DNA of 53,724 nucleotides from Mucilaginibacter geliditolerans (GTDB taxonomy: Bacteria; Bacteroidota; Bacteroidia; Sphingobacteriales; Sphingobacteriaceae): assembly GCF_014200495.1 (NCBI RefSeq), contig NZ_JACHBY010000017.1, positions 1 through 53,724 of the forward strand, read 5' to 3'. Position numbers and translations under genes: made by a program. Below are positions 46,695 through 52,902 of the stretch, piece after piece. Each line of letters starts with the position of its first letter. Positions within the stretch are counted from its first letter, which is position 1. The notes beneath the pieces were generated by a model, which had not been told where the DNA came from, ran no database searches, and saw only the letters and a program-made list of their open reading frames with translations.

Positions 46695-47309
46695 TTATAG
46701 CTTATCGCCTTTCATAGCCTGGTTTAGTGAAGCGATGCTTGCCCTGATCCCATCGTCTGTATTTTTCAGGTATTCGCGTACCTTTTTCCTGCCCATGTTA
46801 ATGGAGTTAGCCATGCCTAAATGTTTCCGTGTATATATGCCAATTAAATACTCAGGGCTATGTTGATAGTAGCTTAGATTCCTGAACAAATCGTTTTTGG
46901 GTACAAAATAGATGTCGAATATTTTATAGGTGTATTTATTATCGGTGCAATTAATTTTTATAGAAAATATAAGGTAAAAGGTGTATTTAACTACCGATAC
47001 CGATGTTGTTGTCATTTTAAAAGTTACCCCAGCCTGGTTTAATATAGCGCTATTGGAATCGCTGTCTTTTGACAAGGTGTCGGGACGGTGATATTTAAAA
47101 TAGCTAAAAAACCATTTCCTTGCCGTCATGTACAATTGGTTTTTGTTGTGATTATTTAATGTAACGGTATCTGCATAAATTAAATGCTCATTCACCATTG
47201 GCATTTGATAAATAAATGCACCCTGGGTATCAACGGAATCTTTCCCGGCTTGCGAAAAGCCCGCTTTAGTTATTAATAAGAGTATAGAGAGAAGTAAGAG
47301 TTTATTCAT
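46695..47309 (-). CDS. Exported hypothetical protein
   Basis: 204 aa from the ATG at 47307-47309 (MNKLLLLSILLLITKAGFSQ, a signal peptide ending near residue 20). The frame runs to 47351, but the internal start gives a proper signal. The rest is a mixed alpha/beta domain with VTFKMTTTSVSVVKYTFYLIF and IFDIYFVPKND. It resembles periplasmic DUF4468-type proteins of Bacteroidota only loosely. It ends 23 nt before rsgA on the same strand and may be co-transcribed. Function unknown. Confidence 0.65.
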   Translation of the reverse strand: MNKLLLLSILLLITKAGFSQAGKDSVDTQGAFIYQMPMVNEHLIYADTVTLNNHNKNQLYMTARKWFFSYFKYHRPDTLSKDSDSNSAILNQAGVTFKMTTTSVSVVKYTFYLIFSIKINCTDNKYTYKIFDIYFVPKNDLFRNLSYYQHSPEYLIGIYTRKHLGMANSINMGRKKVREYLKNTDDGIRASIASLNQAMKGDKL

Positions 47310-47714
47310 ATATACTGTAATTATAAGAATAAGCACTTTTAAAATTATCAAAAGACTTTATAAAAGCGAAATAAATCCGACTAAGTAGTTTAGGGAAGAG
47401 CCTTGCGTTAGTGATGGTAAGGGTTTAGCCCGACGAAGGAGGCCCGGAGCAAAACGCAGCGCTGAACAGCACGGGCCGGAGGCAACGCCCAAATCTACCC
47501 CCCGTCATCCTGAACTTGTTTCAGGACCCCACAGAACAAGTGACCTGCATGGCGGTAGCTAAGCGCGTGAGGTGCCGAAACAAGTTCGGCATGACATATT
47601 GGTAAGATCCTTTCACCCCGACTACGCTTCGCTGGTCGACCCTCTCTACGGCAAGCCGCAAAGAGGGTGAGCTCTTATTTTACCTCCCCAAACAAAAAAT
47701 AAAACACAAACTTC
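47310..47714. other. Gap before the threonine operon, repeats
   Basis: From 47405 it holds GCCCGACGAAGGAGGCCCGG and GGGCCGGAGGCAACGCCC (a GC-rich repeat word), then the palindrome at 47504-47595, then GACCCTCTCTACGGCAAGCC ... AAAGAGGG as at 31252-31290. No gene recognised. Confidence 0.55.
47504..47595. repeat. GTCATCCTGAAC palindromic repeat
   Basis: GTCATCCTGAACTTGTTTC and GAAACAAGTTCGGCATGAC arms, with centre ACAAGTGACCTGCATGGCGG and TAAGCGCGTGAGGTG as in 11316-11407. Confidence 0.75.
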
Positions 47715-47746
47715 TTGCTATTTCAAAAATTAACTGCTTATTTTAC
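47715..47746 (+). promoter_or_regulatory. Putative promoter of the thr operon
   Basis: TTG (47715-47717), 21 nt, then TATTTTAC (47739-47746), an imperfect TAnnTTTG. Transcription would start near 47753, about 20 nt before the leader ORF. The match is degenerate. Confidence 0.4.
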
Positions 47747-47771
47747 GGCGTCTTACAAAAAGACCATAAAA

Positions 47772-47837
47772 ATGATAACAAACGGCACCATTATTACAAC
47801 AATTATTACCACCGGGATAATACCTGGAGGAAGATAA
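47772..47837 (+). CDS. Threonine/isoleucine leader peptide
   Basis: A 21-codon ORF starting MITNGTIITTIITTGIIP and ending GGR with TAA at 47835-47837. Six codons are Thr and seven are Ile, an extreme composition. It precedes a terminator and then thrA, exactly as the thrL leader of enterobacteria does, so it should sense charged tRNA-Thr and tRNA-Ile. When either is short, ribosomes stall before codon 18. The codons GGA GGA AG at its end (47826-47833) form the antiterminator arm. No sequence relation to E. coli ThrL is claimed. Confidence 0.85.
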   Translation: MITNGTIITTIITTGIIPGGR

Positions 47838-47874
47838 TCGTATGGTGTAAAAACATAAAAAAGAAACCAAATGA

Positions 47875-47910
47875 ACGCCTTCCTCCGACAAAGAGGAAGG
47901 CGTTTTTGTT
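47875..47910 (+). terminator. Attenuator terminator upstream of thrA
   Basis: ACGCCTTCCTC (47875-47885) and GAGGAAGGCGT (47893-47903) are perfectly complementary over 11 bp, with a 7-nt loop and TTTTGTTT after. Competing pairing: GGAGGAAG (47826-47833) is perfectly complementary to CTTCCTCC (47879-47886). A stalled ribosome leaves the antiterminator possible; a ribosome at the leader stop covers it and the terminator forms. Confidence 0.85.
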
Positions 47911-47923
47911 TATAACACGTATA

Positions 47924-50371
47924 ATGAAAATTTTAAAATTTGGCGGTACTTCCGTAGGATCAGTAGCAAGCATCCAAACCTTATTAAACATTTTAAAGAA
48001 CGAGGCTAAAGCCGAAAAGCCGGTTGTTGTACTGTCTGCCATGAGCGGGGTAACTAATTTGCTTGTTTCGATGGCTGAGGGTGCCGCTATTGGCAACGAG
48101 TTTACCGCACAATTAGCTGAGCTGGAACGCCGCCACTTTGATGTAATAAAAAGCCTGTTGGATATTCAGCACCAAAACCCGGCCTTTACCCGCCTTAAAA
48201 TTCACTTTAATCATTTAGAGGATCTGTTACAGGGTGTTTTAACCTTAAAGGAACTTACCCCAAAAACACGCGACCTGGTATTAAGCTATGGCGAACGCTG
48301 CTCTACCTTAATGGTAAGCAAAATTGCCGCGCAATACTTCCCGGAAGCTCTTTTTGTTGATGCATCGGAACTGATAAAAACTGACAGCGCCTTTGGTCAG
48401 GCTAAGGTTAATATGGAGCTTACCGAACAACTGATCCGTGGTTTCCAAAAAGAGAACAGCGATAAAATGCTGTTTGTTACCGGCTTTATAGCTGGTAATG
48501 ATGCAGGGCAGATCACTACATTAGGCCGTGGTGGTAGCGATTATACCGCGGCAATATTTGGTTCGGCATTAAATGCACAGGAGATCCAGATCTGGACCGA
48601 CGTTAACGGCATGATGACCGCCGACCCTCGCCTGGTTAAAAAAGCATTCTCGTTACCGGAGCTTACTTACACCGAGGCCATGGAGCTTTCGTACTTCGGC
48701 GCAAAGGTGATTTATCCGCCAACCATGATCCCTGCATTCCTGAAAAAGATCCCTATCGTTATAAAAAACACTTTTGAGCCTGAGTTTGAGGGTACCGTTA
48801 TCCGCCACGATTGTAAGGCATCAACTTTGCCAATCAAGGGTATCTCCACCATCAACAACATCAGCATCCTTAATCTGGAAGGCAGCGGTATGGTAGGCAA
48901 ATCAGGCTTTAGCGGTCGTTTGTTTTCCTTATTGGCGAGGGAGCAGATCAATATCATCCTGATCACCCAATCATCATCAGAGCACAGCATCACCTTCGCG
49001 GTGCAGCCTGATGATGCCGAAAGAGCAAAAACATTAATTGAACAGGAGTTTGAACTTGAACTGCTGGCTAATAAACTGGAAAAACCTGCCATTGAGCGCA
49101 GCCTTGCCGTATTAGCCGTAGTTGGCGAAAACATGAAGCAAACCCCCGGTGTATCCGGTAAATTGTTCCATGCGTTGGGCCGTAATGGTGTAAACGTGAG
49201 GGCGATTGCGCAAGGCTCATCAGAATATAATATTTCGGTGATCATATCAGCGCACGACCTGGCTAAGGCTTTAAATGCGGTACACGATGCATTTTTTGTA
49301 CAGCTTACCAAAACGCTGCATGCCTTTTGCTTAGGTACAGGCAACATCGGTAAAACATTGTTTAAGCAATTGAATGCTCACAGCGATTTTTTACAGGAGC
49401 ATAACGGCATCCAGGTAAAAATTGCCGGCGTAAGCAATACCCGTAAAATGGTTTTTAATGCTGATGGTATCTCATTGGATACCTGGGAAGATGATCTACA
49501 GGCTTCAGATGAAAAAGCTGATCTGAAAGGATTTATCGAGCGCATGAAGAGCATGAACCTGCCGAACTGCGTGTTTATAGATAATACCGCCAGCCCAAAA
49601 CCTATTGAGTTTTACGAGGAAGCATTTAAATCCAACATATCGGTAGTAACCTGTAATAAAATAGGTAACTCGGCTTCCTACAAACAATACACCACTTTCC
49701 GCGATACCGCGAGGCAGCATGGGGTCGATTTCTTTTACGAAACCAATGTTGGCGCGGGCCTGCCTATCATCCGTACCTTAAAGGATCTGATGAACAGCGG
49801 CGACAGGGTGCAGCGCATTGAGGCTATACTTTCGGGTACTATATCATTCATCTTTAATAACTTTAAGGGCGATGCTAATTTCCACGATGTGGTGAAGATG
49901 GCGCAGGAAAAAGGCTATACCGAACCCGATCCGCGTGATGATTTACGTGGCACCGACTTTATGCGTAAAATGCTGATCCTGGCGCGTGATGCCGGTTACG
50001 CTTTAGAGGCATCGGATGTGGAGATAGAAAGCATGTTGCCAAAAGCTTGCCTGGATGCACAATCTGTTGATGATTTCTACGCTGCATTAAAAACTGAGGA
50101 TGCTTTCTTCGCCAACCTGAAAAACTCAGCAGAGCAAGACGGCAAGGTTTTAAGGTACATCGGTAAGCTGGAAGATGGTAAGGTAGCCATCACCCTGCAA
50201 ATGGTTGATGAGAACCACCCGTTCTTTACCCTGTCAGGCAGTGATAATATCATTTCTTTCACTACCGATAGGTATAAAGAACGACCTTTGGTAGTAAAAG
50301 GCCCCGGTGCAGGTGCCGAGGTAACTGCCGCAGGTGTATTTGCTGATTTAATAAATGTGGGTGCTAATTAA
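47924..50371 (+). CDS. thrA: Bifunctional aspartate kinase / homoserine dehydrogenase I
   Basis: 815 aa from the ATG at 47924 (MKILKFGGTSVGS). First and third steps of the aspartate pathway to threonine. The kinase domain (about 1-300) has KFGGTSVGS, TLGRGGSDYTAAIFGSAL and WTDVNGMMTADPR. Two ACT domains (about 305-455) for feedback control follow. The homoserine dehydrogenase domain (about 460-815) has LGTGNIGKTL, VDFFYETNVGAGLPII, LSGTISFIFN and YTEPDPRDDLRGTDFMRKMLILAR. It starts 14 nt after the attenuator's T-run. Confidence 0.95.
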   Translation: MKILKFGGTSVGSVASIQTLLNILKNEAKAEKPVVVLSAMSGVTNLLVSMAEGAAIGNEFTAQLAELERRHFDVIKSLLDIQHQNPAFTRLKIHFNHLEDLLQGVLTLKELTPKTRDLVLSYGERCSTLMVSKIAAQYFPEALFVDASELIKTDSAFGQAKVNMELTEQLIRGFQKENSDKMLFVTGFIAGNDAGQITTLGRGGSDYTAAIFGSALNAQEIQIWTDVNGMMTADPRLVKKAFSLPELTYTEAMELSYFGAKVIYPPTMIPAFLKKIPIVIKNTFEPEFEGTVIRHDCKASTLPIKGISTINNISILNLEGSGMVGKSGFSGRLFSLLAREQINIILITQSSSEHSITFAVQPDDAERAKTLIEQEFELELLANKLEKPAIERSLAVLAVVGENMKQTPGVSGKLFHALGRNGVNVRAIAQGSSEYNISVIISAHDLAKALNAVHDAFFVQLTKTLHAFCLGTGNIGKTLFKQLNAHSDFLQEHNGIQVKIAGVSNTRKMVFNADGISLDTWEDDLQASDEKADLKGFIERMKSMNLPNCVFIDNTASPKPIEFYEEAFKSNISVVTCNKIGNSASYKQYTTFRDTARQHGVDFFYETNVGAGLPIIRTLKDLMNSGDRVQRIEAILSGTISFIFNNFKGDANFHDVVKMAQEKGYTEPDPRDDLRGTDFMRKMLILARDAGYALEASDVEIESMLPKACLDAQSVDDFYAALKTEDAFFANLKNSAEQDGKVLRYIGKLEDGKVAITLQMVDENHPFFTLSGSDNIISFTTDRYKERPLVVKGPGAGAEVTAAGVFADLINVGAN

Positions 50372-50396: not shown

Positions 50397-50413
50397 AGCT
50401 TTTGAATAACCAT

Positions 50414-51397
50414 ATGGAAAATAACATAGAAGAAGTGAAAGCCCCAACTATAATATCGGCTGGCCGTCCGTCCGTACAGGTCTTTGCCCCGGCCACGGTG
50501 GCCAATGTTGTGTGCGGCTTTGATGTGCTTGGCTTTGCCGTTAACGAACCCGGCGACGAGGTGATCATGCGCCTCACCAACAAGCCGGGTATCACCATCA
50601 GCAAAATTACCGGTGATGATGGCCGTTTACCGCTCGATCCGGCTAAGAATACCGTGAGCGTAAGCGTGCAGCATTACTTAAAGAGTGTCGACCGTTTGGA
50701 TATTGGTTTGGATATCGAACTCCATAAAAAAATGCCTATCGGCAGCGGATTAGGTTCAAGTTCTGCCAGTACGGTTGCGGGTTTATATGCTATTAAAACT
50801 TTATTGGGCGATGAGTCTGATCCGGCTAAACTATTGCCTTTTGCCATGAAGGGTGAGGAAATGGCTTGCGGTCATGGTCATGCTGATAACGTGGCACCGG
50901 CTTTATTGGGTGGTTTTGTATTGATCCGCAGTTATGAGCCTTTGGATGTGGTGCGATTACCGCATCCGGCAGGTTTATATTGCGCTATTGTTTTCCCTGA
51001 TGTGGATGTGCCCACCCGCGAGGCAAGACAGATCATCCGCAATAAAATATTTATGAAGGATGCCGTTACGCAATGGGGTAATATCGCAGGACTGGTAAGC
51101 GGTTTGTTTATGCAGGATATCGACCTGATAGGTCGTAGCATGACCGATATTTTGGTTGAGCCCGTACGCTCCATGCTCATCCCCGACTTTTACAAAATGC
51201 GCGAAATAGCCATGGGTATGGGTGCGGTGAGCTTCGGTATCTCGGGCTCAGGCCCATCCGTATTCGCCTTTACCCGCGATGAGGAAACAGCAAAGCTCAT
51301 CACCCAAAAATTACAGCAGCACTTAACCAGCATTAAAATAGGGTCGAATATATATGTGTCGACTATTAATGATCAAGGGCCGAGGGTGATAGGGTAA
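50414..51397 (+). CDS. thrB: Homoserine kinase
   Basis: 327 aa from the ATG at 50414 (MENNIEEVK); a TTG four codons upstream is less likely. A GHMP kinase that phosphorylates homoserine. VQVFAPATVANVVCGFDVLG opens it, MPIGSGLGSSSASTVAGL is the ATP loop, and GAVSFGISGSGPSVFAF the C-terminal Gly motif. Normal length. Second gene of the thr operon, 42 nt after thrA. Confidence 0.94.
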   Translation: MENNIEEVKAPTIISAGRPSVQVFAPATVANVVCGFDVLGFAVNEPGDEVIMRLTNKPGITISKITGDDGRLPLDPAKNTVSVSVQHYLKSVDRLDIGLDIELHKKMPIGSGLGSSSASTVAGLYAIKTLLGDESDPAKLLPFAMKGEEMACGHGHADNVAPALLGGFVLIRSYEPLDVVRLPHPAGLYCAIVFPDVDVPTREARQIIRNKIFMKDAVTQWGNIAGLVSGLFMQDIDLIGRSMTDILVEPVRSMLIPDFYKMREIAMGMGAVSFGISGSGPSVFAFTRDEETAKLITQKLQQHLTSIKIGSNIYVSTINDQGPRVIG

Positions 51398-51591: not shown

Positions 51592-52902
51592 ATGGAATTA
51601 TACAGTACTAACAACCCCAACACCAGGGTATCATTTAAAGAAGCGGTTTTTAACAGCATGCCGCAGGATAAAGGCTTATACATGCCGGTTGAGATCCCCC
51701 GTTTGGATGATAAATTTATTACGCACCTCGATCAGTATTCCCTGCCCGAGATCGCTTTTCATGTAGCTAATCATTTACTGGGCGATTCTATCCCTGCGGA
51801 TGACCTGAAGGCAATTATTTACGATGCCATCAACTTTTATGCGCCCATTGTAAAGCTGGAAGATAAGGTTTATGTGCTGGAGCTTTTCCATGGCCCGTCG
51901 TTAGCGTTTAAGGATTTTGGCGCACGCTTTATGAGCCGGGTAATGAGCTATTTTCTGGAAGAAGGCGAAAAACAACTGGATGTATTGGTAGCAACCTCCG
52001 GCGATACCGGTGGCGCAGTGGCTCTGGGCTTCCTGGGTGTGCCGAATACCCGTGTTACTATATTATACCCTAAAGGCAAAGTTAGCGATATACAGGAGCT
52101 GCAATTAACCACCAACGGGCAAAACATCCGCGCCCTTGAGATCGACGGTACATTTGATGATTGCCAGGCTTTGGTGAAACAGGCCTTTACTGATAAAGAA
52201 CTGAACGAAAAATTCAGGCTGACTTCAGCAAACTCTATCAATATCGCACGACTCATCCCGCAAACATTCTATTACTTTAATGCCTATGCGCAATTGCTGC
52301 GCAAGGGTAACGATAAAGCCGTATTCGCCGTGCCGAGCGGTAACTTTGGTAATATTGGCGCAGGTTTATTAGCCTGGAAAATGGGCTTGCCGGTTGAGCA
52401 GTTCATCGCCGCTACTAACGTTAATGATACCGTGCCCGAATACCTTAAATCCGGCATTTATGAGCCTAAGCCATCGGTAGCAACACTATCAAACGCTATG
52501 GATGTGGGCAACCCGAGCAACTGGGTACGCATTGCCGATATGTTTAAGGGCGATATCGACCAACTAAAAACCCTCATCACCGGTTACAGCTTTGATGATG
52601 AAGCTACATTAGCCGCTATAAAGGAAGTTGATGCCGAGGATAACTATGTGGTTTGTCCGCATACCGCTATAGCCTGGCAGGCCCTTAAAGACTGGCAACA
52701 ACAGCACTCCGACAGCGAAGCAACCGGTATATTCCTGTCCACCGCCCACCCCTGCAAGTTCCCCGATGTTTTCCCTGATAATATTGCCGAAAAGATTGTT
52801 GTACCCGAGCAGGTTAAAGATCTGGAAGAAAAAACCAAGCATTCCGTTATCCTGGGTAAGGAGTTTGGGGAGTTTAAGGATTATTTGTTGAAGCATAATT
52901 AA
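51592..52902 (+). CDS. thrC: Threonine synthase
   Basis: 436 aa. A PLP enzyme that makes threonine from O-phosphohomoserine. MELYSTNNPNTRVSFKEAV opens it. The PLP lysine is in PSLAFKDFGARF (about residue 108), the phosphate loop is ATSGDTGGAVALGF, and VPSGNFGNIGAG lies later. Normal length. Third gene of the operon, ending 41 nt before the IlvN-like gene. Confidence 0.95.
   Translation: MELYSTNNPNTRVSFKEAVFNSMPQDKGLYMPVEIPRLDDKFITHLDQYSLPEIAFHVANHLLGDSIPADDLKAIIYDAINFYAPIVKLEDKVYVLELFHGPSLAFKDFGARFMSRVMSYFLEEGEKQLDVLVATSGDTGGAVALGFLGVPNTRVTILYPKGKVSDIQELQLTTNGQNIRALEIDGTFDDCQALVKQAFTDKELNEKFRLTSANSINIARLIPQTFYYFNAYAQLLRKGNDKAVFAVPSGNFGNIGAGLLAWKMGLPVEQFIAATNVNDTVPEYLKSGIYEPKPSVATLSNAMDVGNPSNWVRIADMFKGDIDQLKTLITGYSFDDEATLAAIKEVDAEDNYVVCPHTAIAWQALKDWQQQHSDSEATGIFLSTAHPCKFPDVFPDNIAEKIVVPEQVKDLEEKTKHSVILGKEFGEFKDYLLKHN

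Follow-up and report, generated by a model that had tools for sequence, protein, structure and literature searches.

The window, by which we mean the whole stretch of 53,724 nucleotides that was analysed, carries on its forward strand the genes thrA, a fused aspartokinase-homoserine dehydrogenase (47924..50371; PF00696, PF00742, PF03447), thrB, a GHMP kinase (50402..51397; PF00288, PF08544), and thrC, threonine synthase (51592..52902; PF14821, PF00291), where the product of thrB is taken as homoserine kinase on the basis of its operon context. The stretch analysed here, 47715-47923, lies directly 5' of thrA, with thrB and thrC following (Pfam), and all features described below lie on the same strand. 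The nearest ORF on its 5' side, 46695-47351, is on the opposite strand. A scan of genome contigs gave 346 loci with relatives of the window's thrA, the best 80 of which form what we call the genus set. The nearest named ones among them are from Mucilaginibacter (Sphingobacteriaceae), a title carried by 72 of the 80, the others being titled just Bacteroidetes or Sphingobacteriaceae bacterium. At the beginning of the stretch a -33-like TTG (47715..47717) and a -7-like TATTTTAC (47739..47746) are arranged as TTG-N21-TATTTTAC. The spacing TTG-N21-TAnnTT, which we take to be the Bacteroidota promoter type, is found in 69 of 79 upstream rows of the genus set, window included, and transcription would presumably start at about 47750. 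The segment 47753-47912 folds with z = -6.45, and none of 200 shuffles is equally stable.

Close to the presumed transcript start lies a short ORF of 21 codons (47772..47837), which reads MITNGTIITTIITTGIIPGGR before its stop codon and for which a recount confirms the six Thr and seven Ile codons given in the preliminary description. Its Thr plus Ile fraction of 0.62 is at the top of the 1883 short ORFs in the whole window (12-40 codons, every start counted), and none of 2000 dinucleotide shuffles of 47701-47924 yields an ATG ORF of 12-40 codons that is equally rich in Thr and Ile. A leader ORF was also expected in relatives, and it is indeed kept across the family and in all 80 genus-set loci, with a length of 20-24 codons, always rich in Thr or Ile, with 4-10 Thr and 0-8 Ile codons, Ile being absent in three of the 80. 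Outside the genus the peptides of the 98 loci introduced below are highly diverse; Thr occurs in all of them (2-11 codons) and Ile is missing from four. The peptide counts inside and outside the genus are biased in that our script preferred Thr/Ile-rich ORFs when choosing the leader. Since Thr is present in every leader and Ile is sometimes absent, we regard Thr as the constant signal and Ile as a frequent second one, so that of the joint Thr/Ile control first proposed the Thr part stands and the Ile part is not universal. In the window the control codons are codons 6-14, TIITTIITT (47787..47813): in the folding model described below a ribosome stalled there leaves region 2 free. Conservation does not extend to Ile codons 2, 16 and 17, the last two of which are located at or past the switch point, and this suggests, as far as the model goes, that codons 6-14 are the ones that can matter for control.

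Between the leader and thrA lies an intrinsic terminator stem-loop (47873..47905) with a T-rich tail (47903..47911). It had been described as a perfect stem of 11 bp with such a tail; the tail is as stated, whereas the stem comprises 12 Watson-Crick pairs (47874-47885 with 47893-47904), or 13 counting the terminal G-T. The 5' arm of the stem contains region 3, CTTCCTCC (47879..47886), which is common to terminator and antiterminator, and which is the exact complement of region 2, the antiterminator 5' arm GGAGGAAG (47826..47833) at the end of the leader, just as the preliminary description had it. Upstream within the leader are two possible protecting segments: region 1a, CACCAT (47786..47791), can pair with 47842-47847, and region 1b, CCACCGGG (47809..47816), pairs with CCTGGAGG at 47823-47830. 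Moreover, folding the transcript as it would be before the terminator 3' arm is made gives an antiterminator longer than first noted, consisting of GGAGGAAG/CTTCCTCC together with a second helix in which TCGT-A-TGGT (47838..47846) faces ACCA-A-ATGA (47866..47874). According to the fold this second helix can coexist with the terminator.

How far are these structures conserved among close relatives? In 77 of 81 rows, the window's among them, a script recovers the terminator plus 8 or more antiterminator pairs; in the remaining four it fails on the terminator, which by eye has one stem mismatch in each. These four rows were removed before we built the alignment A1, which retains 45 of the 81 rows at less than 92% likeness. 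In A1 98.6% of the terminator cells are paired, and 25 cells are changed on both sides, which 0 of 500 shuffles reach. The two-sided changes are located at the base of the stem, which is free of antiterminator duty. The part common to the antiterminator hardly varies, which is what one expects of a segment with two pairing partners, and hence regions 2 and 3 show no covariation within the genus: 99.4% of cells are paired between them, with no two-sided change. The protector pairings are likewise conserved with no covariation in A1, region 1a being paired in 85.2% of cells and region 1b in 97.3%, neither with any two-sided change. In the second helix three pairs have two-sided changes and 0 of 500 shuffles reach its covariation score of 0.084, a value to which a control slid by +1 comes close at 0.077; the outer pairs of the helix are lacking in as many as 15 of the 45 rows. 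As an observation apart, in ten loci of the genus set a long inverted repeat of the type CCTCACCC...CCTCTCC sits between terminator and thrA and sets them farther apart, by about 80-140 nt in all.

The non-coding block TCGTATGGTGTAAA is also strongly conserved in the genus set. Such a block would be expected if the leader were a riboswitch or a protein-binding element that senses threonine directly, the peptide being secondary, and the TAAA part of the block is matched by none of the helices tested. The two helices, however, account for most of TCGTATGGTGTAAA, no Rfam family reaches its cut-off in the window, and the Thr codons are retained in a peptide that otherwise varies, all of which makes direct sensing very improbable in our view.

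Immediately after the leader comes a second ORF of only two codons, start-Val-stop, ATG GTG TAA (47842..47850). At this place 79 of the 81 rows made up of the genus set and the window have a start-NNN-stop, as do 42 of the 98 rows outside the genus, in a further 19 of which the leader itself ends in this way (one row falls in both classes), while shuffles lead us to expect about 17 of 81 and about 13 of 98; the significance rests on these shuffles and the rows are related. Start, middle and stop codons all vary (ATG GAA TAG, GTG GGG TAA, TTG GCT TGA). At eight loci there is an overlap of the new start with the stop of the leader, as TAATG or TAGTG, and in several genera the leader runs in frame into an ending of this type. 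The element is mostly missing in four genera: g16 (2 of 18), g18 (4 of 15, with one more in frame), g19 (0 of 1) and g25 (0 of 1). Part of the conservation, that of the ATGG, is due to the second helix. One might suppose that the two-codon ORF takes over the ribosome after the leader, and that a ribosome parked there covers region 2 and makes termination reliable, but we offer this as a tentative and rather unlikely idea.

To follow the arrangement beyond the genus we use R1, a covariance model built from A1. R1 matches 129 of 151 Sphingobacteriaceae genomes, in 21 of 25 genera, leaving 22 genomes with no match. The window's own genus contributes 19 of the 151 genomes, and outside it R1 matches 110 of 132. 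We examined the best match in 103 of these 110 (seven genomes are excluded and second matches are set aside): 98 lie before thrA, in 17 genera, with the N-terminal motif of thrA at most 330 nt downstream in all 98, and of the five others three precede ilvA, while two stand in front of neither gene. Weaker matches in the family are located before genes that we judge from their N-termini to be ilvE, ilvD, ilvA and pheA, at nine loci, with leaders rich in Ile/Leu/Val or in Tyr/Phe. These other-operon leaders are attenuator-like too, but differ from the thr attenuator in control codons and arms. Among 14 second or extra matches, six resemble attenuators of other operons and the remainder look like chance matches or plain terminators. 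In the window's own genome no leader attenuator is found within 400 nt before ilvD, and a weak second R1 match there, considered as a candidate, proves to be a terminator that follows a His-rich ORF. In one genome (locus L130) the thr attenuator occurs twice, about 0.8 kb from start to start, separated by a 187-aa ORF that presumably resembles an RNA-ligase domain; the upstream copy has kept the RNA arms and lost much of the Thr/Ile run.

Across these genera regions 2 and 3 do change, and they change together. Many loci have GGAGGAAG/CTTCCTCC, while others have CGGGGC/GCCCCG (L222), CGGGAC/GTCCCG (L235), CGGGGC/GTCCCG with a G-U (L151), CGGGAGC/GCTCCCG (L209) or, in several loci of g18, GGAAGG/CCTTCC. 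Within a single genus, g14, one and the same pair is G-C in L222, A-U in L235 and G-U in L151. We also compared the duplex of each locus's own regions 2 and 3 with permuted combinations, for 97 loci made up of 91 of the 98 and six from the genus set. The own duplex averages -16.0 kcal/mol against -13.6 kcal/mol (sd 0.25) for permuted ones; this gap exceeds nine permutation standard deviations, and 0 of 5000 permutations are as strong. With one locus per genus (17 loci) the figures are -17.4 and -16.2 (sd 0.48), and permutations are as strong in 3.3% of cases on average and 41% at worst. Eight loci where the script found no terminator, including all four of g15, were left out of both permutation tests. 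Because related sequences are not independent, the individual compensated cases are better evidence than the permutations. Compensatory changes had been anticipated in both competing stems: the terminator shows them within the genus, and the antiterminator shows cases outside it and none inside.

This co-change also bears on the simplest alternative, namely an incidental short ORF followed by a hairpin that serves as a plain terminator or as a processing signal. Strong terminators are common: the Rfam Thr_leader model has many sub-threshold matches, and the five of these that we inspected are terminators. But the closest ORF on the 5' side runs in the opposite direction, so the terminator before thrA does not belong to that gene, region 2 changes along with region 3, and the Thr/Ile run recurs in all 80 genus-set loci and Thr codons in every one of 98 loci from 17 other genera, with the proviso that Thr/Ile-rich picks were favoured. 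We thus give a plain terminator very little credence.

Could the position of the ribosome decide between the two structures? In our folding model the ribosome footprint is set at each codon of the leader in turn. In the window, region 3 pairs with the leader for any ribosome position up to codon 15, and the pairing is mostly lost from codon 17 on, putting the switch between codons 15 and 17; with the ribosome at codons 21-22 there is a partial return, to about 3.5 of 13 region-3 bases paired. The same drop just past the Thr/Ile run is seen in eight relatives and in E. coli thrL, for which the same script puts the switch where the Thr run ends. At the stop codon of L209 6.3 of 16 region-3 bases are paired again, and in L151, L154 and L164 the pairing is also absent with the ribosome at the first two to three codons. 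This dependence on ribosome position implies that a ribosome stalled in the Thr/Ile run would tip the balance towards antitermination, and that one which finishes the leader would tip it towards termination. In the equilibrium fold with no ribosome the 2:3 pairing forms in the window and does not form in L151, L154 and L164; since it forms in the window, termination of untranslated RNA would there rest on kinetics.

Taken together, we propose that the thrABC leader acts as a ribosome-mediated transcription attenuator, a reading to which we assign a probability of roughly 0.9 on the strength of sequence and modelling. The preliminary description had proposed Thr/Ile leader-peptide attenuation of thrABC, and the conserved leaders, the compensation in the terminator and the compensation in the antiterminator outside the genus support it. 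An ORF rich in codons for the product and an intrinsic terminator 5' of the first gene are recognised in the sequence, and sequence and folding together point to an exclusive antiterminator freed by a stall at the control codons. We favour attenuation because these parts are present and conserved, terminator and second helix covary, regions 2 and 3 compensate outside the genus, and the folding depends on ribosome position. RNA polymerase would start near 47750 and a ribosome would translate the leader. When charged Thr-tRNA (and in most species also Ile-tRNA) is ample, the ribosome would move beyond codon 16 and cover GGAGGAAG, leaving CTTCCTCC free for the terminator, and transcription would end before thrA. 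When the ribosome stalls in codons 6-14, GGAGGAAG would be free and would pair with CTTCCTCC before the terminator 3' arm has been synthesised, and the operon would be transcribed; the TCGT-TGGT/ACCA-ATGA helix probably assists the antiterminator. Translation of the leader, stalling, coupling of transcription to translation and the response to starvation are all what we would predict from this scheme.

A further alternative is that the leader works chiefly on translation or through Rho, for example by reinitiation into thrA. Reinitiation by leaders has been proposed for many bacteria, Bacteroidetes among them (PMC4833913), and Thr-rich ORFs stand before thrA with no clear T-run terminator in some other Bacteroidia. 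Of the 23 genomes of the class outside the family whose ThrA match has an E value of 1e-150 or lower, we read 20 upstream regions. Inspected by eye, nine of them show a short Thr-rich ORF whose end falls in a small hairpin of the type ACCCC/GGGGT or ACGGG/CCCGT; this hairpin includes the stop codon or lies next to it, and a clear T-run terminator is absent. Such small-hairpin leaders may represent a different control mechanism; a search of 296 genomes with one exact hairpin pattern gave two matches, both already known, and says little about their spread. In the window, on the other hand, the leader stop is 86 nt from thrA with a strong terminator in between, and we consider control at the level of translation or Rho most unlikely here compared with the attenuation just described. 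One locus in another family (L176) has an attenuator similar to the window's, at 31.5 bits with R1; its ThrA is 62% identical to that of the window, compared with at most 51% for the other non-family genomes, and its thr operon has perhaps been transferred.

If the leader functions as this anatomy implies, attenuation of the thr operon is a standing regulatory system in one family of Bacteroidota, and the ilv and pheA leaders in some relatives suggest that its use is broader. Ribosomes of Bacteroidota are thought to make little use of Shine-Dalgarno pairing. Were attenuation to operate as proposed, the coupling of transcription to translation in these bacteria would have to be tight enough to let a ribosome guide RNA polymerase. 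Among the papers listed by searches of the open literature on attenuation in Bacteroidota, we saw no thr attenuator described for that phylum; a comparative survey of attenuation from 2010 (doi 10.1134/S0026893310010164, cited in PMC10272879) may contain an earlier prediction.

While in this paper we focus on the thr operon, the leader invites comparison with known families. Bacteroid-trp RNA (RF01692) is a Trp leader. Table 1 of PMC2864571 gives it as a motif of Bacteroidetes that is likely to be cis-regulatory; it belongs to a different operon, and it has no match in the window. RF00506, Thr_leader, scores 32.9 bits in the window against a gathering cut-off of 55, and in none of 61 family genomes does it exceed the cut-off. 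We considered whether such sub-threshold matches indicate descent from thrL and rejected the idea, since a Phe/Tyr leader scores higher, at 36.1 bits; the five inspected sub-threshold sites are terminators at gene ends or between genes, and none has a short Thr/Ile leader ahead of a gene for biosynthesis, although one of them (L267) follows the Thr-rich end of a longer ORF. In the opposite direction, R1 matches thrL end to end with 43.1 bits, compared with 20.3 for hisL, 14.2 for ilvL and none for leuL, while on leaders within the family it reaches up to 43.6 bits before ilvD, 40.4 before pheA (Phe/Tyr) and 52.5-55.4 before ilvA. When codons 2-17 of thrL are permuted, 21 of 400 copies attain the sequence-only part of its score, 11.8; when all inner codons are permuted 4 of 400 do so, and of 400 dinucleotide shuffles none does. 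The layout itself is alike: E. coli K-12 thrL (NC_000913.3 190-255; RF00506) likewise is a Thr/Ile leader of 21 codons with the antiterminator arm in its last codons, a terminator before a fused thrA and a nearly identical switch position. The placement of the arm inside the leader ORF, which had been regarded as a special minimal design, is thus no peculiarity of this locus, the same layout being evident in thrL from its sequence and from the folding control. The two differ in the letters of their arms, which are GGTGCGGGC/GCCCGCACC in thrL, where the last codons GGT GCG GGC face GCCCGCACC, and GGAGGAAG/CTTCCTCC here, and the window's leader, unlike thrL in this comparison, has an additional covarying helix. 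As judged from the sequences, the similarity between R1 and thrL may be read either as common descent or as convergence, the independent origin first proposed.
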